From the NCBI RefSeq assembly GCF_963676285.1, contig NZ_OY781063.1, positions 868,001 to 932,000 on the forward strand: DNA of 64,000 nucleotides, given 5' to 3'. Under the pieces are notes generated by a model, which saw only the letters and a program-made list of their open reading frames with translations, made no database searches and was not told where the DNA came from. Within the stretch, counting starts at the first letter, position 1; each line of letters starts with the position of its first letter. The position numbers and the translations under genes were made by a program. This document shows positions 24,554 through 43,100 of the stretch, in pieces. This stretch comes from an uncultured Sphaerochaeta sp. (GTDB lineage Bacteria; Spirochaetota; Spirochaetia; Sphaerochaetales; Sphaerochaetaceae).

Positions 24554-24586
24554 ATAACTTGCACAAGGGCAAGGCCCTTAAAAGGA
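24554..24586 (+). promoter_or_regulatory. Conserved leader element with hairpin and ribosome site
   Basis: ATAACTTGCAC is followed by AAGGGC-AAG-GCCCTT and then AAAGGATG. The second twin has the same flanks around a different but equally paired hairpin, so the structure, not the stem sequence, is kept. The AAAGGA ribosome site starts two bases after the stem. Confidence 0.65.
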
Positions 24587-24594
24587 TGAATGAT

Positions 24595-25149
24595 ATGAAA
24601 AAGACTATTACAATCTTGTTGGTACTGGTAATCGGAATGGCTGGCGTGTTTGCTGCAACTGCTGATTTGAATTTGATTACTACAGTATTCGAATTTAGTG
24701 AATTGAAAATAACTGAATCAGATTCTCCTATAACATGGAATAGTTGGACGAATGCTGCAGATGGCAATTTTTCTTCAACCTATACTGGAACAGATAATGC
24801 AAATAGAAAAGAGATTGATCCTTACGTCACAACTGCTCAAAATGTTGGATACTTAAATACCAGGACTAACCGTCGTGGCGGATACGATGTTACAGTTTCA
24901 GCAACAGCTTTAACCTCTACTGATGGTACTACTGTACAGGATATCAACTACGAAATTTATAATGACACTGCGACTGCTGTATATATTGTAGGAACTACAA
25001 CAAGTCCTGCTACATTTGTTTCAGAGAGCGTAGGGCAAGGAATGAGATCAAAACAGACTCCAATATCTGTAAAATTATTGACCACAGGAGATGCCCTTAG
25101 TTCAGGAACTTACACAGGTGATATCACTTTCACCTACACCGGTAATTAA
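24595..25149 (+). CDS. Small secreted beta-rich protein, twin A
   Basis: 184 residues with a Sec signal peptide (MKKTITILLVLVIGMAGVFAATA). The mature part is rich in T, S, N and G and predicted nearly all beta-strand. It shares with twin B the block N-x(0,1)-R-x-G-Y-x(2)-T-[VL]-SATA (here NRRGGYDVTVSATAL), an NYE segment, and the ending YTGDITFTYTGN. That alternating last strand recalls fimbrial or coat subunits, which is suggestive only; I do not recognise the family. ATG eight bases after AAAGGA is chosen over an ATG that overlaps the ribosome site. Promoter, leader and terminator form a single-gene unit, likely well expressed. Confidence 0.8.
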   Translation: MKKTITILLVLVIGMAGVFAATADLNLITTVFEFSELKITESDSPITWNSWTNAADGNFSSTYTGTDNANRKEIDPYVTTAQNVGYLNTRTNRRGGYDVTVSATALTSTDGTTVQDINYEIYNDTATAVYIVGTTTSPATFVSESVGQGMRSKQTPISVKLLTTGDALSSGTYTGDITFTYTGN

Positions 25150-26869: not shown

Positions 26870-26900
26870 TAACTTGCACTGGAGCGTAGCTCCTAAAGGA
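26870..26900 (+). promoter_or_regulatory. Conserved leader element of twin B
   Basis: TAACTTGCACT is followed by GGAGC-GTA-GCTCC and then TAAAGGATG. The flanks match those of twin A, while the stem differs at several positions with pairing preserved. Confidence 0.65.
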
Positions 26901-26908
26901 TGTTTAAA

Positions 26909-27454
26909 ATGAAGAAGAATATTATTGCAACTTTGTTGGTACTGGCTATCTCTTCTATTGCAATTTTTGCTGCTAATGCTACTGGGCAGTTTGATGTTGT
27001 CACCAGTGTTGGAGGAATTCACGAAATCAAGCTCGTTACCGTTGGAACAACTGTTCCTACAAACAAGGGTGGTTTTGATGGTCTTTCTGCTGATAACTCT
27101 GATTTCACAGTTGATGACACCAACTATAGTTCAGTACAGACTGTTCGCCAGCTGATCAGCATGTCTAACAACAGAAACGGATATTACATGACACTCTCAG
27201 CAACCGCTATGGGAGCTGATCTTGGTACAGAATTTGCCTATATCAATTATGAAGTGGTCGCTGGTGGTGCCACGGTAACTACCAATGATGCCACTGAAGT
27301 TGATTCAGTAACCAACATCTACGACAGCGGAACGTTGAATGGTATGGACTTCTACTCTACCAACGTAACTGTAGAGGTTAACGCCGAAGAGTACGAGAAC
27401 GCTGTAACTGGTTCATACTCTGGAACGATTACCTTTAATCTCTTTGCAAACTAA
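26909..27454 (+). CDS. Small secreted beta-rich protein, twin B
   Basis: 181 residues with signal peptide MKKNIIATLLVLAISSIAIFAANA. The mature protein is rich in T, N, V and G and predicted beta. It shares with twin A the NNRNGYYMTLSATAM block, a YINYEV segment, and the terminal strand YSGTITFNLFAN; overall identity is modest. The ATG lies eight bases after AAAGGA, as in twin A. The promoter and leader of both genes match, so they are paralogous units separated by an AraC regulator. A structural surface role, for example a fibre subunit, is a guess from the alternating C-terminal strand. Confidence 0.8.
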   Translation: MKKNIIATLLVLAISSIAIFAANATGQFDVVTSVGGIHEIKLVTVGTTVPTNKGGFDGLSADNSDFTVDDTNYSSVQTVRQLISMSNNRNGYYMTLSATAMGADLGTEFAYINYEVVAGGATVTTNDATEVDSVTNIYDSGTLNGMDFYSTNVTVEVNAEEYENAVTGSYSGTITFNLFAN

Positions 27455-32710: not shown

Positions 32711-33047
32711 TCCCCCAGAAAACACTCAGAGTCAATCTGTACATATAAGAGAATCGTTTCTAAGATTGACTCAATAAGCATACATTTTCTCAAAAACTTA
32801 TGTCATATTTGCCTATTGAAATATTGACAACGCGATAGTTTCATTCAAAAAATAACATAAGGGCATGTTAAGTGATGACATACTCCAGTTATTTTGGGTG
32901 TGAAAACGATTCATGAATCATGTAATGCTACTTGCTTTTGTCTCTATCCCCTTATGAGTACTACCAGTACTGCTGCCAAGCATCCTTGTACCGGTAGGTA
33001 CGGTTGCTGTAGGTAAAACCATCTTTTCTTAGTAGGGGGAGAGAGAT
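32711..33047. promoter_or_regulatory. Long structured upstream region of the giant Ig-array gene
   Basis: No gene is seen. It contains ACTTATGTCA (reverse of the recurring motif) at 32796-32805, the perfect palindrome GATTCATGAATC at 32908-32919, AGTACT-ACC-AGTACT at 32957-32971 and GTACC-GGTA-GGTAC at 32988-33001. A TTGACA at 32824-32829 has no clear partner box. The last two hairpins would lie in the leader. Confidence 0.5.
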
Positions 33048-36000
33048 ATGAATCGTAAGGCGCTGTTTGTTAGTATATTGATTCTTGTTCTGTTAGCTGG
33101 TTTGGTTGCACCACTCGGTGCAAAAGTGCGACGATCAAGTAGCAGGATTCTTTCCATCCCTGATAATATTGTCACAACGAGAAAAGCCAAATTCAAGTTG
33201 GGGGATATTCTTACGAATGAGATGGTTTCAATGACCATCGAAAATGACCCAAAGCCAGCATATTTGCTACTTGTCCTGGAATTAGAAATAGACAGTGATT
33301 CCATTATTGGGGAGAGTACGGCAAGAGCAGAAATCGTCAAGCACTTTGCAGGAAATGAAACGCTTACCTTCACAAACACCGATATTCTTAAATATACCAG
33401 CAATGTGAAACGAGGTTCGGTTTCCCAATCCCTGAAGGATACCTTCGGTGTCTCAGGCATGGATTCCTTGACTGAAACTTTCTTTACAGGAGGAAAGCAG
33501 GAAGTTCCTGAAGGAATATACAAGCTCTCACTCCTTGCATATGAAATTGATAATGAGAATGCAACTTCCGGGAGTCCGTTGATTGAGAAACAATCGCTCA
33601 CATTCAAGGTAGTAAACATTGACCCAATTGAAATACTTCAGACTCCTACAGTAAGTGAACCAATACTGAAGTTTCGTGTTCCTCAGATTCCATACTACAG
33701 CGAAATGAGCATCTCAAATAATTCTACGACACATGTGACGATAACCGGACCTGGAATGAATACCCCATTAAGGAAAGACCATAGAAAAGTAACAGCTCCA
33801 AGCATTAATGCTTTGAAAGGTTATCCTTCTGATCTTCAAGACGGGATTGTTACCTATGATCTGTCTACCGTATTGTTTAGAGCAGGTGGAGAGTATTCTT
33901 TCGATATCATATTCAAAGATGACTCAAACTTTGAGATTGATACAAAGACAGTAGTTGTAAAATTCCCTACACCCAAATTCAATGCAACAGTAGATGTCTC
34001 TCAACCTCTTCTTCCCCTATTCCGCTGGAGTTTCAATGATGATTATGCCCTATGGGCAAGTGAGTACCATGTTTATCTCAATGAAGTCAGATCGGGAATA
34101 TCCTCAACCAACAGCTATACACCAAAAAATCTTCTCTGGCCAAGCACGACCTACAAATGGTATGTCATGCCAATCAATAGAGACGGAACCCCGTTCTTCT
34201 CAGCTGATGCTGTTACAAGACAATCATTTAAAACAAAAGACCACACAGAGCTAACAATCTCAGTTGATAACCCTCCAACCAACGCTACGCTGCTAACCGA
34301 TTTGACATATTCTTTCAGTGCCAATGCGGTATTCAGTGATGGAGCAGAACTCAAACATGCTTCCTGGAAAATTGGAGCTGATATCCTTCAAGGAACCACT
34401 AGCTCTTACACACCAACCAAGCAATATACAAATAACAGCTTGCTTGCCTATTTTTCAGTTACCGATACCCTGAACATGACCAAGAACTCAGAAAATATCT
34501 ACCTCACGGTATACCAACCTCAACTTGCAATCCAAGGAGAACCTGTAAGGGATGCAAAGAAAAAAGCAACCGTGATGTTCACTCTCGACCCTAAGAAAAG
34601 CAGACATTATCAGTCGGTATCATGGTACCTTGACGATAAACAAATTGGCACAGGATCAACCGTAGCTTACAACTGTGATACCAGCGGGGTATTCTCCGTA
34701 GTCGCAAAGGGAGAAAGCACCCCCGATTATCTAGGAAACACAAAACAGTTGGAGTCCGCACCTCAACAGATTACAGTAATTGGAACTGAACCAATTGTAT
34801 CACTGCTCAATGTTGAAGACTCCATCCAGATGCTCCTGGGATCAACGCTAGACATCTATTCAGCAGTCCAGAATGACAATCAAATCAAGTCTATACAATG
34901 GAGCTATACTGGCCCAGAATCAGGAAACTTAGGTTCAACGCTTACACAAGCCACCTTCTCTCCTTCAAAGACAGGGGAATATACCATCACACAGACAGTC
35001 ACCGACATCTATAATGAAGCAGGGACCGCATCAGCTCGCATATTGGTCATTGATCCAGAAGTACGTATTACCAATATTGATGCAGGAAAGAATTTCCCAT
35101 TGGATTCAACTCATGCAATCTCCTATTCAGCTACAAATGCAAAAGAGATCCAGTTTTTCGTTGACGGCAAGGAACTGCTCTCAGATCGGTTAATTTTCGA
35201 AAACCTTGGTCTTGGTAATCATACTGTCTTTGCCAGAGCAATTTATGCGGTTGTTGATAAAACAGGAAATCAGGTTCTTCATACAAAAGATACCGAACCT
35301 ATCCAGTTCCTCGTCCGCGATATAAGACCCCCAGAAATCCAATTACGCTTCCCAGCATATAACACCCGCCTCATGAGAGGAGTTACCTATACGCTCGAAG
35401 CTGATGTATCAAGCACATCTCCTATTACTGAAAGTTATTGGGAATTGAATGGAACCAGGCTTGCCTCCAACACTTTTGCGGTTACAAAGGACATGCCTTC
35501 AATTTTAACCATTAGATACACAGCAAAGAACCAAGATAACATGGAAAAGACAGTATCAACATGGGCACGTAAAATTGATCCTACTGTCTTTATCAACCCT
35601 CCAGAAACTTCAGATATTCCTTCCTCTGGATATATCCCCGTCGTTGCAAGTACTACAGAAAATGCGAGCCTATTCTGGATTATCGATGGAGAAAAACTCA
35701 ATTATTGGAACAAGAACATCCCCCAAGTTGGAGAACACACCATACAGGCAGGATGGAGTATAGGTGCAGCAGATGAGAACGGCAACTACAAGGTATATGA
35801 AGGTGTATCTGAAGAAGTGAAGGTAACCATCTACAGTGACGAGCCACCCAAGATTACTTCATATGCCCCAACAGAAGAAGTGGTACGGCAGACGATACAT
35901 ACCCCAGTACAATTTTCTCTTACCACCTCTGACGGTTATGAAATGAAAGCTACTAAATGGAATATATATGACCAGAAGGGAATATTCATTCGCCAGATTG

Positions 36001-39000
36001 CGGGAGAGACATTACAACTACAGAATTATGGAAAAGGTGTGTATACGGTCCAGGCAATTATTTCCGATACCTACGATAGAACCGACAGCCATGAATGGAC
36101 TGTAAGTCTTTTTGATCCACAGGTATCAATAACTTTCCCGAAGGATGGAGAAGAGGTTTCGCTCAAACAAATAGAGCAACCTATCATCCAACAACAAGAT
36201 ATCAAATCATATGCTTTGACTTTAAACGGGGAGGCAATTCCCAATACGTTCAATTGGGTTGCCTTGGAAAGCGGCGAATATTCTTTATCAATCGAAGGAC
36301 TTTATAACGTAAGCGATAAGACCGAACTGCAAAGAACACCACCCCATACCATCTCATTCTCCATCGCAAAAGATAAAACACCTCCAGAATTTGAGGTGGA
36401 TATCATTAAGAATAACGATCGAATCATTGCCGGCCTTGATTACCGTCTCACGGCATATGGGAAGGCCGATGAAACATTTACTTGGATTTTGAATGGCAAA
36501 GAGGTAGGAAGTGGTCCTGAATATACCTTACGGCCTTCAACAACCCAGAAAAACTTGACACTCATTGCACGGGGTAAACGTAATGGCATTACCTTGGACA
36601 AGACCTTTAATCTCAGAATCATCAACCCGTACTATGCAATGAATACCCCGGGAGGAGGCTATGACAATTATTACCCTCTTGGGTCAACGCTATACCTTTC
36701 CTACAGTTTTCGCGACATTGATAGGGTCGAGTGGATTATCGACGGGAGTCCTTCTCCAAGCAATTCAATCTCCTTACCGATAGGAGTGCATACCATTGAA
36801 TTGCAAGGATATGCAAGTCAAGTACGTCTACCTGAAGGCACGTTGAAAGACTATCGTCCATCTATGAATAGCTATGAGACACGCCGTGATATCCAAATTG
36901 TGGAAACACAACGCGTCCTTTCGATTGATGCACCTGATGAGGTTCTCGAAGGCCAGAGCTTTGTTGTTCGTGCAAATACGAGCAGAGAGGATCCAAGAGA
37001 TTTACTGAACCAATTAACACTTTATATTGATGATACATATAACAGAAGGAATTATGGGAATCCTGTTAATCGAATGTTTACCCTATCGTCTCTCATCGAA
37101 GGGAACCATATGCTTAAGATACATTCCTCTGATGTTTTCAATCGTGGAGGCGTAGCATATAAGCCGATTAATGTGTATAAACCTCTCGAGATGGCTATCA
37201 TCTCTCCTACTGATGCACAGAGAATATCGCCTGATGTCAATGTGATAGCTCGTACAGAAGTTTTGACGGGAAAAATCAACCGTCTGACATGGCGTATAGA
37301 CAACCGAGTTGTATCAAACAGCAATTACACAACGGTAAATCTTGGGAAATTGGAACCAGGAAAACATACCATCAGTGTCAGTGCCGAGGATGTGCTGGGA
37401 AATATTAAAACCGAGCAAATATCGGTTGAAATACAGAGTGATTTCCAACTCGATCTCCTGCAACCTGACAAATCCATGGAAACAGTAGTAGGCACCTCCG
37501 TTTCTTTCCTCGCTGGTGTAGACAAGGTAATAGGCTCTGCTGTAAATGTGACTGATGCAGCAAGACATATAACGTGGTATGTGAATAATACCAACACCAA
37601 TAAAAATGGAATCTCCTATATCTTCGATGCAGAGAATCCAGGGACCTACACGATTTATAGTGAGTATGACCATAATGAGATGGTCCGCACCACTTCTTCA
37701 AGAACCATCACTGTTCGGGATATTGCCTCACCCCAGATTACTTACCCCAAGAACGGACAAACCATTCTCTATGCAGATGGAAGCTCTATCTTACTTTCTG
37801 CAAAGGGAGAACCTGGGGCAACATACCATTGGATGCATAACAATGAGATCGTGGCGATAGGGCCTGAAGCTAGCTTTAATCCAAATGGATACGAAGGCGA
37901 GATTCAGCTGAAATTGGTTACAACTGCATTTGGAAGGAATAAGCAGCAATTGGTGAGTTTCTTCCTTGATAGAAACACCCCACCTTCCTTGATGTTGTCA
38001 GTACCTGAAATACAGTACACCGGTGACATGCTCAATTGGACCGCAGCAGCAAGTGACAGTGAAGATCAGACAACTGACCAAGCCATAACCTTTGCCCTTG
38101 ATGGCCTTATACTCTCTAGCGGAAATCCGCGTGAGCTTTCCAGCAAGGACGTAGGTGCCCACACGCTGGTCGCAAGCACATCAGACTCTCTTGGAGCTAC
38201 CACCACACAGCTTGCAAGCTTCAAGGTTGTAGAGACTACACTACCCTTGGAGTTGTTATCTCCTCAAGAAGGTGCAACCTATTACAAAGGATTTGAAATC
38301 CCGCTCCTCGCATCTCTATCTCAAGGTGAGGAAGGAACGTATACATGGACAGTCCAGTATCTGGATGATCCAAGTATTCCGAAGAAAACCTTCCAAACAA
38401 AGCAAGCAATGTTCACGAGTGAAGCTACAGGGGCTGTTTTGGTAGGCCTCGTGTTCACCGACACAAATGGCAGGGAGAGAGGTCGAAAGCAAATACTCCT
38501 AAATATTGAAAACGAACCTATCTATCTGAATATCAATTGGCCGCACGGAAGCACTGTCAATGCAGGGACTCCATTGAATCCTACATTACAGGGACTGCCG
38601 GATAATTGGGAGGAAGGGGAACTGGACTGGTATCTTGCAGGGTTACCTGTTGAAGATTCCACACAGATGGTTGCACCCAGCAATAGTGAGACGTATACTC
38701 TCTCAGCTGTCTATCATATTGAAGATAGAAGCGAACAAGCTTCTGTTGAGTTCAAGGTAAATACTGAGCCTTCAGTTTCCATCACCAGCATTGCTGATGG
38801 AGACGCATACAAGACAGGTACCCCGCTCATCCTTTCAGCAAAGGTACTGGATGATCAAACCTATACTGGAACGGTTACATGGAAAATGGATGATGGGACC
38901 TTGATTGGGGAAGGGAATCCTTTAATCTATACTTCCACAGCCTCAGGAATCATGCACATCAATGCAATAGCAACAGACGATTTCCAACTCTCAGGAAGAG

Positions 39001-40457
39001 ATGCTGTATCTATTGAATTCTATGATGCAATCCAGGCTGTGACGGTAGCAGTGAATGATGGACTACCTACTTATCTTATAAGTGAAAAGGCCCCTGCTCT
39101 ACCAATGTCAGTTTCCTTTACAGGAGGGAGAAGCCCGCAGGTATCCTGGCAAATCAGACAAGAAAATAAAATCCTTGAAAAACAAGGTTTGGTTTCTTCT
39201 TTTACCTATGAGGAATTGAAGGATTTCCAGAGAGAACCTGCCATTGTGTCCATGATCCTGTGGGACAGGACAATGCTCGGTGAAGAGCGAACAGAAATCT
39301 TACGAAAAGATATCCCTCTACAGCTAACCTCTGATGCAACGTTAGAAATACTTAATCCTGTTGCAAGTATTATTTATCGAGTTGGTCAAGATGTGGATGT
39401 GATGCTTTCCATGACTGGTTTTACCGACCCCGCTATAAGTATCACGATCAACGAGATTGTGCGCTCTGTAACTTGGGAACTGAGTGATGATGCCAGAACT
39501 GCAAAAGCCACTATTCCAGCCAATCAGTTTGGAAGAGAAGGCGTCTATCTTATCACAGTCAGCGCTTTGGAAGATGGTGTGTTTAAGGAGTCAGAGACCA
39601 GCATCAATCTCTATGAAAAGCCAAAAGGCATCTATATTGTAGGTGCTCCAGAAATCTTTGATAAGACCGTTGATGCCGTACAGATTACTGCTGACACCTC
39701 TGACCTCGAGGGAGTAGAAAAGATTTTCTGGAAGAGTGACCTCTCAACAGAACCCATTGGAACTGGGAAAATGCTTGATCTCGGGGAGGCTGATCTGAAG
39801 GCAGGAAGTCGATCAATCACCGTCGAGGCATATAATGGAGAACAACTACTTGCCAGCAACACCATCACACTGCAGGTACTCCAGCAAATAGAAGTCTCTA
39901 TAGAAGGAGGTGATGAGCTCTTGGTAGTGCAAGGAGGCGCCGATGTTGCACTAACTGCTAAGGGAACAGACAGGGATGGTACTGTACTCATACCTGAGTC
40001 CTTCACTTGGAGTTCTCACTTGAATGGTTCTATAGACGTTGGGAACATACTCTCATTTGCCAACCATCCAAATCTCAGTGGTGGTGAACATATCATTGCT
40101 GTACAGGTAGTCGGTAAGGATGGATCGATTGCAACTGCACTGAAAATGGTACAGATTATTGGACTTCCCGAAGCAGAGAAGCCACAAGAGCAACAGACCC
40201 AAGTAGCGGCAATATCTAGTGATCAGGAATACAGTGGTTCTCAAGAGGAAGGAGGAGATAATGCAGCTCCCTCTGGTCAACAAGAGGAAGAACAAGCAGA
40301 GACAGATTACTTCGATCTAGGTAGGCCAATAGATACCTTCTTGCCTTCTGAAATTCCTGACCCGTTTGGACCAGGAGCAGGAGGTGCTCCTCCAAGCAGC
40401 ATGATTGAAGATGAGATGAACTCCTTTCTTGGAGCAAACGCTGGGAGTGGCCGATAA
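33048..40457 (+). CDS. Giant exported protein with about 22 Ig-like repeats
   Basis: 2469 residues. The signal peptide MNRKALFVSILILVLLAGLVAPLGA has no lipobox cysteine. Residues about 30-300 form a unique N-terminal part; about 305-390 resemble a fibronectin type III domain (YHVYLN ... WPSTTYKWYVMPINRDG). Then about 22 units of roughly 90-100 residues follow, each with a core strand of the form [VIL]-x-W-x-[IVL]-[DN]-[GDN] (for example VSWYLDD, LFWIIDG, FTWILNG, VTWKMDD) and a G-x-[HY]-T-[IL] strand, as in PKD/Ig-like folds. The last 100 residues are Q/E/G/P-rich and disordered. No LPXTG or autotransporter barrel is seen. The repeats are diverged in sequence, so they are old. It is coupled to a beta-rich partner. 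A surface filament, adhesin or periplasmic scaffold is inferred. Confidence 0.85.
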   Translation: MNRKALFVSILILVLLAGLVAPLGAKVRRSSSRILSIPDNIVTTRKAKFKLGDILTNEMVSMTIENDPKPAYLLLVLELEIDSDSIIGESTARAEIVKHFAGNETLTFTNTDILKYTSNVKRGSVSQSLKDTFGVSGMDSLTETFFTGGKQEVPEGIYKLSLLAYEIDNENATSGSPLIEKQSLTFKVVNIDPIEILQTPTVSEPILKFRVPQIPYYSEMSISNNSTTHVTITGPGMNTPLRKDHRKVTAPSINALKGYPSDLQDGIVTYDLSTVLFRAGGEYSFDIIFKDDSNFEIDTKTVVVKFPTPKFNATVDVSQPLLPLFRWSFNDDYALWASEYHVYLNEVRSGISSTNSYTPKNLLWPSTTYKWYVMPINRDGTPFFSADAVTRQSFKTKDHTELTISVDNPPTNATLLTDLTYSFSANAVFSDGAELKHASWKIGADILQGTTSSYTPTKQYTNNSLLAYFSVTDTLNMTKNSENIYLTVYQPQLAIQGEPVRDAKKKATVMFTLDPKKSRHYQSVSWYLDDKQIGTGSTVAYNCDTSGVFSVVAKGESTPDYLGNTKQLESAPQQITVIGTEPIVSLLNVEDSIQMLLGSTLDIYSAVQNDNQIKSIQWSYTGPESGNLGSTLTQATFSPSKTGEYTITQTVTDIYNEAGTASARILVIDPEVRITNIDAGKNFPLDSTHAISYSATNAKEIQFFVDGKELLSDRLIFENLGLGNHTVFARAIYAVVDKTGNQVLHTKDTEPIQFLVRDIRPPEIQLRFPAYNTRLMRGVTYTLEADVSSTSPITESYWELNGTRLASNTFAVTKDMPSILTIRYTAKNQDNMEKTVSTWARKIDPTVFINPPETSDIPSSGYIPVVASTTENASLFWIIDGEKLNYWNKNIPQVGEHTIQAGWSIGAADENGNYKVYEGVSEEVKVTIYSDEPPKITSYAPTEEVVRQTIHTPVQFSLTTSDGYEMKATKWNIYDQKGIFIRQIAGETLQLQNYGKGVYTVQAIISDTYDRTDSHEWTVSLFDPQVSITFPKDGEEVSLKQIEQPIIQQQDIKSYALTLNGEAIPNTFNWVALESGEYSLSIEGLYNVSDKTELQRTPPHTISFSIAKDKTPPEFEVDIIKNNDRIIAGLDYRLTAYGKADETFTWILNGKEVGSGPEYTLRPSTTQKNLTLIARGKRNGITLDKTFNLRIINPYYAMNTPGGGYDNYYPLGSTLYLSYSFRDIDRVEWIIDGSPSPSNSISLPIGVHTIELQGYASQVRLPEGTLKDYRPSMNSYETRRDIQIVETQRVLSIDAPDEVLEGQSFVVRANTSREDPRDLLNQLTLYIDDTYNRRNYGNPVNRMFTLSSLIEGNHMLKIHSSDVFNRGGVAYKPINVYKPLEMAIISPTDAQRISPDVNVIARTEVLTGKINRLTWRIDNRVVSNSNYTTVNLGKLEPGKHTISVSAEDVLGNIKTEQISVEIQSDFQLDLLQPDKSMETVVGTSVSFLAGVDKVIGSAVNVTDAARHITWYVNNTNTNKNGISYIFDAENPGTYTIYSEYDHNEMVRTTSSRTITVRDIASPQITYPKNGQTILYADGSSILLSAKGEPGATYHWMHNNEIVAIGPEASFNPNGYEGEIQLKLVTTAFGRNKQQLVSFFLDRNTPPSLMLSVPEIQYTGDMLNWTAAASDSEDQTTDQAITFALDGLILSSGNPRELSSKDVGAHTLVASTSDSLGATTTQLASFKVVETTLPLELLSPQEGATYYKGFEIPLLASLSQGEEGTYTWTVQYLDDPSIPKKTFQTKQAMFTSEATGAVLVGLVFTDTNGRERGRKQILLNIENEPIYLNINWPHGSTVNAGTPLNPTLQGLPDNWEEGELDWYLAGLPVEDSTQMVAPSNSETYTLSAVYHIEDRSEQASVEFKVNTEPSVSITSIADGDAYKTGTPLILSAKVLDDQTYTGTVTWKMDDGTLIGEGNPLIYTSTASGIMHINAIATDDFQLSGRDAVSIEFYDAIQAVTVAVNDGLPTYLISEKAPALPMSVSFTGGRSPQVSWQIRQENKILEKQGLVSSFTYEELKDFQREPAIVSMILWDRTMLGEERTEILRKDIPLQLTSDATLEILNPVASIIYRVGQDVDVMLSMTGFTDPAISITINEIVRSVTWELSDDARTAKATIPANQFGREGVYLITVSALEDGVFKESETSINLYEKPKGIYIVGAPEIFDKTVDAVQITADTSDLEGVEKIFWKSDLSTEPIGTGKMLDLGEADLKAGSRSITVEAYNGEQLLASNTITLQVLQQIEVSIEGGDELLVVQGGADVALTAKGTDRDGTVLIPESFTWSSHLNGSIDVGNILSFANHPNLSGGEHIIAVQVVGKDGSIATALKMVQIIGLPEAEKPQEQQTQVAAISSDQEYSGSQEEGGDNAAPSGQQEEEQAETDYFDLGRPIDTFLPSEIPDPFGPGAGGAPPSSMIEDEMNSFLGANAGSGR

Positions 40458-40468
40458 GGAGGACCATG

Positions 40469-43036
40469 ATGAAAAATAAATATTTTATAATACTGTTAAT
40501 AAGCATGATCGTAAGTTCCTCCTTGTTTGCTCTGGAAGTCGATATCCCAAAGGAAATTCCTGCCTATCGCAACCTTATGGTCAAACTCATACCCGCGCAG
40601 AGTGAAGGCTCCATTTCTGAAGCTCGGTTCTTCTTCTACCAAGTAGGTGTAAGGGAACCTCTCTACTCTGAGTTCATGCCTGAGCGGGATGAGTGGATAG
40701 CAAAGGTTCCCTATACATACCTAACGGGAGAGGAACTGACGTATTTCTCAGTAATGAAAAACACGGAGGGAACCGTTTACCGCACACCACAAATTGGAAC
40801 ACAAAAAGTCCGTCTGATTCAGGACATCACCCCACCAAAGCTCAAGCTTGTGTCTCCAACCACCTTTGATTTGGTGGCGGAAGAACAACAGTTGGTTGTC
40901 TTTGAGATAGAGGACGAGAGTGCCCTATCAAGCTTCTCTATTTCGATTGATGGGCAGGAAGCAATTCACTCAGGAGCCTTTGGACAGTACCTTTCTTTCT
41001 TGGTAAAACCTACAGAGCAAGAAGAAAGTGTGGTTTCAGTTTCCATGAAGGACCGATACGAAAACACAAGCACGGAAGAGTATCGCTTTAAGATAGGAGC
41101 AAAGAAAGCTCCAATCTTTGTCGCTGATGCCTCGTATCAAAGCAGTATTGAACTCGAATACATGCTTGGTCTGGGGGAGAGTGAGAAGTCCCTGGATATT
41201 CCAACTGTGTTTGCTGATCAGAACCATCAATTGAATGTAAGCTATGCGCTTGGAGGTGACACCTACCTTAAGGCAGGGCCAATTTCCCTCCAAGTGGCAG
41301 CTAGTTTGAGTGATTCAATTTCAGTAGAAGAAATCTTTGAAGCTTACCCAAACACACTGTTGGCTGATCTTCAGAATATACTGAACCTATACAACCCAAT
41401 CGATTTTGCAAACGAGTTTGATTACACAGGAGAGATAGCAAGAAAGTATGAAAATGATAACAGATTATTGCTAAAGATTTCGTTCTTTGATCCCATCATT
41501 ACCTATACTTTTGGAGACCAAGAACTCAATTTCCAGCCGGAGACCATCAATAAATTGGGTTTCAGAGGAACAGCATTGGCAATAGATCTCCCCTTCTTCG
41601 AAATGAAAGTAGGGAAAGGCCTTACAGATCTTGGACTTTATCAAGTAGCATGGCCGAAAAACTTCCTTGGTTTCCAAGTAGGAGTAAAAGCTAAGGAATT
41701 GTGGTATTTCCAAACCAATCTTTCCTTTATCAGCGCACTGCAGGGTCGGTATACTTCACTCAAGAAGACTGGTGCGACCTCTCAAATCGGAGAACTGTAC
41801 GATGTACTCACTACCCCTCCTGACCAGAATATGGTCATGGGACTAGGAACAGGTGTACACGCCAAAACGTTTACGATTGATGCATCCTTCTCCTTTTCTC
41901 TGTACAACCAGGATGCGAGCACCATTCTCGATGTTAATCAGCTAGCAAGTGACTTGGAGTCCCAAGGAGGCCCTGACCTTAGCTCCTATATCGATTATAT
42001 CGATACGGTGCACGCAATATTCCCAGTGTTGGATTACTTCTTACCCTCCAATGGGTTGATTGCAGGAATTGTCGACAAGGATTTGTGGGGTATCAGCTAC
42101 GGAGTTGATATGACCATTCCTTCCCTTGGAATAGAAGCTTGGGTTCGAAAGACAGATGCTACATTTAGAAGCCTTGGCTCATCCGTGGAAACAGACATCT
42201 TCACATTTGGGGTATTCTCTGAAAAGAGCGTTGGGGACTTTATGGTACGAGGAGGGTACTCATACGATAAAGATACCATCGCAGATATCCTCTTCAATGA
42301 CATCATTGCTTTGGTAAAACCTGATCTTCTAACTACAAGTACAGTTTCTGCTAGCGATATCTCTACCATTCTACATACTGCACAAGTTGGGTTTGATACA
42401 CCCCAGAGCAAGCTTCTTGGTACCGTAAGTGTGAATTATTCTTTTACGTTTGCAACCAACACTGCAGAGAAACTTGCAGAAAAGGCCCCCGACAGTACGG
42501 TTGAATCCTCGATTCTTACCTCTACTAAAAATGATGTCACGATGACGCATACCACAGAACTGCGCTGGAGAAGTGGACAATATAAGCTAGGTCAAATATC
42601 TACGAATGTAGGTGCTCAAACAAAGGATTCATACGTATTACAATCACGCATAGATGGTGTCGATTCTGATACATCATTCTTTGAGTACTCGTATGCATTG
42701 ACCAATAGTTTAGGATTCGACCGCTATGTTCTCTCCCTTGGTTTTGACCAAGCCTGGAGCACTGAAGATGATAGCTTGATTACTTATGGCTATGACACGT
42801 CTCTTTCGGTCAAGGATACGTTCTTTAATACTGTACGTATCAGCGCTTCTCTTGACCAAGCTTTCAAGTCATCACTCGAGGCTTATCGAATATCTGGAGG
42901 ATTTGAACTAGATAAACAGCTTGGAATGTTCGTGGCATCAGCATCATTAAAGACAGAGTATTATGATTCTTTGCAAGACAACACTGAAGATTCCCTGACA
43001 ACTTCTCTGACAATCAAAGGTGTATTCAGGAAATAG
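40469..43036 (+). CDS. Exported beta-rich protein, probable outer-membrane partner
   Basis: 855 residues, signal peptide MKNKYFIILLISMIVSSSLFA. The first 200 residues look like one or two Ig-like domains (EVDIPKEIPAYRNLMVKLIP ... VSVSMKDRYENTSTEEYRFKIG). The remaining 650 are long alternating hydrophobic/polar strands with short turns, such as WYFQTNLSFISALQGRY and GTVSVNYSFTFATNT, and the chain ends in LTIKGVFRK, as in beta-barrels with a terminal aromatic near the end. I do not recognise the family. AAGGAGG six bases before the second ATG fixes the start; that site overlaps the stop of the giant gene, so the two are co-translated. An anchoring or export role for the giant protein is inferred. 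Confidence 0.75.
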   Translation: MKNKYFIILLISMIVSSSLFALEVDIPKEIPAYRNLMVKLIPAQSEGSISEARFFFYQVGVREPLYSEFMPERDEWIAKVPYTYLTGEELTYFSVMKNTEGTVYRTPQIGTQKVRLIQDITPPKLKLVSPTTFDLVAEEQQLVVFEIEDESALSSFSISIDGQEAIHSGAFGQYLSFLVKPTEQEESVVSVSMKDRYENTSTEEYRFKIGAKKAPIFVADASYQSSIELEYMLGLGESEKSLDIPTVFADQNHQLNVSYALGGDTYLKAGPISLQVAASLSDSISVEEIFEAYPNTLLADLQNILNLYNPIDFANEFDYTGEIARKYENDNRLLLKISFFDPIITYTFGDQELNFQPETINKLGFRGTALAIDLPFFEMKVGKGLTDLGLYQVAWPKNFLGFQVGVKAKELWYFQTNLSFISALQGRYTSLKKTGATSQIGELYDVLTTPPDQNMVMGLGTGVHAKTFTIDASFSFSLYNQDASTILDVNQLASDLESQGGPDLSSYIDYIDTVHAIFPVLDYFLPSNGLIAGIVDKDLWGISYGVDMTIPSLGIEAWVRKTDATFRSLGSSVETDIFTFGVFSEKSVGDFMVRGGYSYDKDTIADILFNDIIALVKPDLLTTSTVSASDISTILHTAQVGFDTPQSKLLGTVSVNYSFTFATNTAEKLAEKAPDSTVESSILTSTKNDVTMTHTTELRWRSGQYKLGQISTNVGAQTKDSYVLQSRIDGVDSDTSFFEYSYALTNSLGFDRYVLSLGFDQAWSTEDDSLITYGYDTSLSVKDTFFNTVRISASLDQAFKSSLEAYRISGGFELDKQLGMFVASASLKTEYYDSLQDNTEDSLTTSLTIKGVFRK

Positions 43037-43061
43037 AGTATAATAGTATCCTTACATCCTT

Positions 43062-43100
43062 AAAAAATTCCCCCAATTGTGCACTCACACAACTGGGGGA
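43062..43100 (-). terminator. Terminator of the lyase/ABC operon
   Basis: Read on the minus strand, TCCCCCAGTTGTG pairs with CACAATTGGGGGA (one mismatch), then AATTTTTT. It may also slow the convergent transcript of the barrel gene. Confidence 0.88.

Follow-up and report, generated by a model that had tools for sequence, protein, structure and literature searches.

A conserved two-gene locus of Sphaerochaeta encoding a giant Ig-like protein and a predicted 26-strand beta-barrel, a candidate export and anchoring system

Among the described systems closest to the locus considered here, chaperone-usher pili (FimD/PapC) combine a wide barrel carrying accessory beta-sandwich domains with genetically linked immunoglobulin-like (Ig-like) fibre material, and the 24-strand usher pore passes folded Ig-like pilins. 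In two-partner secretion (FhaB/FhaC), a barrel and a giant exported protein with a conserved N-terminal module are encoded by adjacent genes, intimin and invasin join a string of Ig-like domains to an outer-membrane barrel, and GhpA, the grappling hook of Aureispira, is a giant Ig-like protein reportedly exported by the type 9 route. The locus lies in a stretch of 64,000 nucleotides (hereafter, the window) of an uncultured Sphaerochaeta sp. (contig NZ_OY781063.1, positions 868,001 to 932,000) and consists of two genes, which, like all features below unless stated otherwise, are on the forward strand: the first encodes a giant, apparently exported protein of 2469 amino acids (aa; 33048..40457), and the second encodes a partner protein of 856 aa, or 855 aa from its second ATG (40466..43036). 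We consider this conserved, cassette-like two-gene system to be real, and export and anchoring of the giant by the barrel of the partner to be the best guess at what it may do.

Described systems compared with the locus

The AlphaFold2 model of the partner (predicted local distance difference test 85) consisted of two Ig-like domains and a 26-strand transmembrane barrel, as compared with 24 strands in ushers, and all Ig-like units of the locus are contained in one polypeptide. The Usher profile PF00577 had no match on the window barrel (E ≤ 1) or among its 18 relatives (E ≤ 0.1), and no periplasmic chaperone gene adjoined the window pair, the further flanks being inspected by eye only and the rest of the genome not being searched. 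Compared with two-partner secretion, Ig-like domains occupy the place of POTRA domains, 26 predicted strands stand against 16, and an Ig chain stands against a beta-helix. Pfam revealed no POTRA, ShlB or FhaC match on the window barrel, only one of the 18 relatives matched ShlB (with an E-value of just 0.0088), and neither the two-partner secretion domain nor a beta-helix was matched by Pfam in the giant, whose residues 1–680 were modelled as Ig-like and FN3-like domains. The logic of intimin and invasin would be the same if the giant were surface exposed; however, the barrel is here encoded by a separate gene and has far more strands, and the Pfam inverse-autotransporter barrel profile matched neither protein. 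In Foldseek, residues 1–680 of the giant, the part covered by this search, matched GhpA best, with titin also among the matches; GhpA is about twice as long, and the likeness is one of fold, with no sequence relation shown. The type 9 sorting C-terminal domain, models of which Pfam and NCBIfam presumably hold, was matched in neither library (NCBIfam, E ≤ 1).

The 26-strand barrel of MtrB/PioB is a feature shared by the predicted partner; nevertheless, this assignment was rejected, as neither protein contained a CXXCH haem motif and PF11854 had no match in the genome, where it should be noted that the control matched one of 14 genomes, below the cut-off, so that the sensitivity of this profile is unproven. 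LptD entries also appeared in the Foldseek list, but the Ig-like N-terminal domains, the cassette-like distribution and the presence of two copies speak against LptD; PF04453 had no match in the genome, the control having matched only two of 14 genomes. At least one defining feature was thus not found here for each of the usher, two-partner, MtrB, type 9 substrate and inverse-autotransporter systems. No characterised adhesin family matched the giant or the partner in the libraries searched, and the view of the earlier note on this DNA that no described system has such an arrangement was not contradicted by the open-licence literature, where the portions available, spirochaete papers included, contained no description of such a giant Ig/barrel pair; likewise, neither PMC6052044 nor PMC12236494 describes the pair in the portions available. 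The hypothetical protein SpiGrapes_0966 of Sphaerochaeta pleomorpha Grapes is a barrel homologue (51% identity), and no published function for it was found in the same literature. This strain appears to carry one full-length pair (G016), the giant lying directly upstream of the barrel.

Conservation and history of the gene pair

The pair behaves as one unit, which is supported by the closeness of stop and start, co-occurrence across genomes, a second pair and a two-gene insertion. The stop codon of the giant (TAA, 40455–40457) directly abuts GGAGG, so that the stop is fused to the Shine-Dalgarno sequence of the partner (TAAGGAGG; 40455..40468 together with the first ATG), and the two possible partner ATGs lie 8 and 11 bases past the stop. 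The earlier note had described exactly this order, spacing and protein length and an overlap of the partner's ribosome site with the stop of the giant, and both descriptions hold. GGAGG was found within 8 bases past the stop in 15 of 23 junction lines (the window and 22 others, in which locus L063 repeats L048 and L059 repeats L051). The variants GAGGAG or AGGAG were present at L048/L063 and L060, the Shine-Dalgarno sequence was placed further downstream at L067 and L061 and was missing at L066, and the genes overlapped outright at L064 and L062.

According to searches with two profiles, the N-terminal module of the giant and the barrel were both present in 13 of 139 family genomes and both absent from 123, while three (G005, G021 and G006) contained barrel fragments only, G006 also having a middle piece of the giant. 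A full-length barrel gene was found in 13 of the 14 genome stretches fetched, and a giant homologue lay directly upstream in 13 of 13, in line with the conserved neighbourhood expected earlier. The remaining stretch, from G005, which had no giant match, contained a barrel remnant (L049:10430-12295), the upstream portion of which contains stop codons, at a locus where relatives keep the pair. The pair was present at 12 of 13 named loci, several of which repeat genes of the fetched stretches, and L068 ends at a contig edge. In G015 and G309, the giant was spread over two contigs; in G006 (L017/L034, C79), giant residues 862–1909 run into 38 barrel residues at the contig end, which may have arisen by deletion or by misassembly; and in G018, the giant is interrupted by an ISL3-type transposase gene (L044:2343-3674; PF01610, 1e-61). 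Four genomes carried two pairs each. Among 392 genomes drawn evenly from the phylum, both genes were found in four, the window's genome included, and the other matches (three for the barrel profile and two for the module profile) were all short and single-domain. Named barrel homologues among the matches listed belonged to Sphaerochaeta, Rectinemataceae and other Spirochaetes, the spread beyond the family being a lower bound in both protein searches. Since the neighbourhood recurs in relatives and the genes co-occur across the family, the arrangement is more than chance; the pairing, like the Ig chain, rests on computed results.

The second pair in the window's genome (C2:3062244-3072250) has a barrel 57% and a giant 44% identical to those of the window pair, and its locus, the neighbours of which resemble, by eye, galactokinase and threonine synthase genes, is common to several relatives. 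Downstream of the second pair, a lipoprotein-like gene with two Big_2 domains was found in G000 (L042:10478-11677), and a lipoprotein-like gene with Listeria-Bacteroides repeats was found in the same slot in G001. A conserved third partner was rejected, as the gene in this slot changes type and has no counterpart beside the window pair.

The window pair is flanked by the glycerol-3-phosphate dehydrogenase gene (gpsA) on one side and a DHDPS-family gene on the other. Relative to G001, the gpsA of which is 98% identical, a segment of 10351 bases (32713..43063, from BLAST alignment ends) replaces 151 bases between these two genes, which are neighbours without insertion in G001 and likewise in G002, a genome without the pair; other neighbours were found beside gpsA in G016 and G018. 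The G+C content of the window pair was 0.43 versus 0.46 and 0.48 in the flanks, and for the second pair the values were 0.48 for the barrel and 0.49 for the giant together with its 1.5-kb flanks. The replacement of 151 bases of G001, the shift in G+C content and the empty site in G002 make acquisition of the window pair as a cassette of two genes the most likely history. The longest word shared by the insertion ends was a 9-base inverted match, and phage origin was rejected, since neither protein had a PHROGs match (E ≤ 0.1). A terminator-like hairpin on the reverse strand (43069..43100) separates the pair from the DHDPS-family gene, which is convergent with it, and the hairpin sequence is also present in G001, which is without the insertion. 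What appears by eye to be a sugar ABC transporter operon stands beside the window pair, and two small exported-looking proteins without a Pfam match are encoded at 24559–25149 (196 aa) and 26900–27454 (184 aa) of the window.

The predicted barrel and the Ig-like array

In the model of the partner, the two Ig-like domains comprise residues 23–118 and 119–212 (40532..41101), and the barrel comprises residues 218–855 (41117..43030). The Ig pair is predicted to be periplasmic because of the even number of strands and the pattern of short turns and long loops, and good conservation was seen in several of the long loops that would face outwards. The long loops include residues 287–332 and 482–540. 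The barrel, although it rests on prediction, bears out the earlier note, which had proposed a partner with an Ig-like N-terminus and a barrel-like C-terminal part; the partner was not predicted to be a soluble periplasmic protein. The closest solved folds were MtrB, SprA and usher pores, PapC being first in Foldseek (families missing from these lists are not thereby excluded), and the matches included many substrate channels, namely, the OprD family, AlgE and maltoporin. By sequence, Pfam gave only two matches on the partner, both far under the cut-off, and none for the barrel family (the window protein and 18 relatives), and NCBIfam matched neither the partner nor the giant (E ≤ 1). Among solved structures, a search by sequence returned two weak matches for the barrel alone and none for the giant, and the barrel profile matched antibody light chains at E ≥ 0.24. 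The barrel is thus predicted to represent a 26-strand family that has no name and no covering Pfam or NCBIfam model.

The giant consists of a signal-like N-terminus, an N-terminal module (residues ~36–396; 33153..34235), an array of Ig/PKD-like units (residues ~402–2372; 34251..40163), an acidic low-complexity linker and a C-terminal tail with an FGPG core (last ~50 residues; 40305..40454). The module, defined from the AlphaFold2 model, alignments and genome searches, comprises a mixed sandwich (~36–190) and two FN3/Ig-like domains. The export signals of both proteins were judged by eye, and the models gave a helix at both N-termini; with tandem Ig-like/PKD units behind such a signal, the giant may be assigned to the giant Ig-like/PKD exported proteins. 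A hidden Markov model seeded with three units delimited on the AlphaFold2 model recovered 10 of the 18 other units at E < 0.01 before any iteration; at iteration 2, 21 units about 90 residues apart were found between residue 402 and residue ~2383, with one unit-length gap (~2005–2097), which brings the array to about 22 units, as the earlier note had counted. All iterations after the initial search, the second included, re-use their own matches and are partly circular; unit counts drift beyond iteration 2, and the results from there on were discarded. Four Ig/PKD-type Pfam families were matched above their cut-offs, BiPBP_C (1.3e-27) and Big_7 (5.3e-15) most strongly, followed by Ig_3 and PKD_4. 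The BiPBP_C label, which refers to the C-terminus of penicillin-binding proteins, may mislead annotation, and no catalytic domain of such proteins was matched in the giant.

Relatives of the giant were sought among proteins 0.55–1.75 times the query length, and 22 of the 25 found were compared with the window protein (the comparison omitted P0037, with 96% identity, and two partial sequences, P0060 and P0061); these 22 were 32–48% identical to it. At other loci, giants of 2958 (L048), 2578 (L064), 1094 (L067) and 1022 aa (L061) were found, and the two short ones retain the N-terminal module and stand beside a barrel of normal length. Conservation along the giant had its minimum in the linker ahead of the tail. 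An [FMH]G[PM]G-type motif was present within the last 110 residues of 18 of the 23 giants and only twice elsewhere in 54,338 residues, where it should be noted that the pattern was chosen after viewing the tails and that the sequences are related. The tail of L061 is related to the motif-bearing tail. A freely expanding repeat array is disfavoured, since the units are diverged and length is near-constant in the long relatives, despite the 1022-, 1094-, 2578- and 2958-aa versions. The near-constant length, the module kept in short versions and the tail motif in most long copies refine the earlier picture of the giant. The most divergent pair (L067:6698-9982), which adjoins several lipoprotein-like genes, has a FecR-like stretch in its giant (by eye; Pfam gave PKD only), and one full-length giant, P0058 (HQ557_04175), is assigned to a Bacteroidetes metagenome bin, possibly through a binning error or transfer.

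Proposed mechanism, rival explanations and meaning

We tentatively infer that the Ig chain is exported to the cell surface by the barrel and stays anchored to it; the most economical account gives this one giant client an outer-membrane partner of its own. Both proteins would cross the inner membrane through Sec, and the N-terminal module of the giant may then dock on the periplasmic Ig pair of the barrel, as suggested by the retention of this module in short versions. By analogy with the usher pore and its Ig-like pilins, the folded Ig chain would traverse the wide barrel, and the Pro/Gly/aromatic tail, where present, would keep the chain in place inside or beneath the pore. This would yield a fibre made of one polypeptide, roughly 80–100 nm long at about 4 nm per Ig-like unit. 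The more specific proposal of a one-polypeptide pilus, in which the 26-strand pore threads 22 pre-joined folded Ig-like domains without chaperone or subunit exchange and holds the chain by its end, so that two genes make up a distinct type of secretion and anchoring, is unlikely.

Several observations weigh against export and anchoring by the barrel. All 23 giants fall within 2432–2516 aa, which is explained as well by a structural role; array conservation is fairly even, without a variable tip; lumen-facing barrel residues are not especially conserved and form no conserved path; the giants of L048, L064 and L067 have helical-looking ends instead of the motif, which weakens the tail as a universal anchor; and the barrel of G018 is full length though its giant is split after about residue 190. 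The first three of these observations, together with the predicted periplasmic position of the Ig pair, fit a periplasmic tether comparable to the toga spacer proteins of Thermotoga, with the giant as a fixed-length rod or belt on the Ig pair, stabilising the envelope of a coccoid spirochaete, and the barrel as membrane anchor. This role is possible but leans towards the doubtful: the absence of both genes from most family genomes and their gain as a cassette would be unusual for a core component of the envelope, so long a chain would not stand upright within a periplasm, and the conserved long loops are on the presumed outer face.

The channels among the fold matches and the apparent sugar transporter operon next to the window pair would suit capture and uptake with a SusCD-like logic, the giant being a polymer-binding surface array and the barrel a large nutrient channel. 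This appears improbable, as neither Pfam nor NCBIfam matched a plug or a domain for carbohydrate binding (no search was made for a TonB box), the two copies have different neighbours, which also vary from family to family, and the same operon also adjoins the empty site. That an adhesin-like giant and a porin are simply co-transcribed without working together would agree with the intact G018 barrel and with the absence of direct evidence of contact between the two proteins, but family co-occurrence, two pairs in four genomes, the two-gene insertion and the conserved junction make it very improbable.

If the barrel exports or anchors the giant, two genes would do the job of usher pili, two-partner secretion and type 9 secretion with other parts, in a spirochaete lineage for whose surface little literature was found, and the pair would offer a compact model for how folded Ig-like chains cross a barrel of such width. 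Even with a periplasmic giant, the envelope would contain an uncommon component, a fixed-length rod of 22 Ig-like units attached to a 26-strand barrel.
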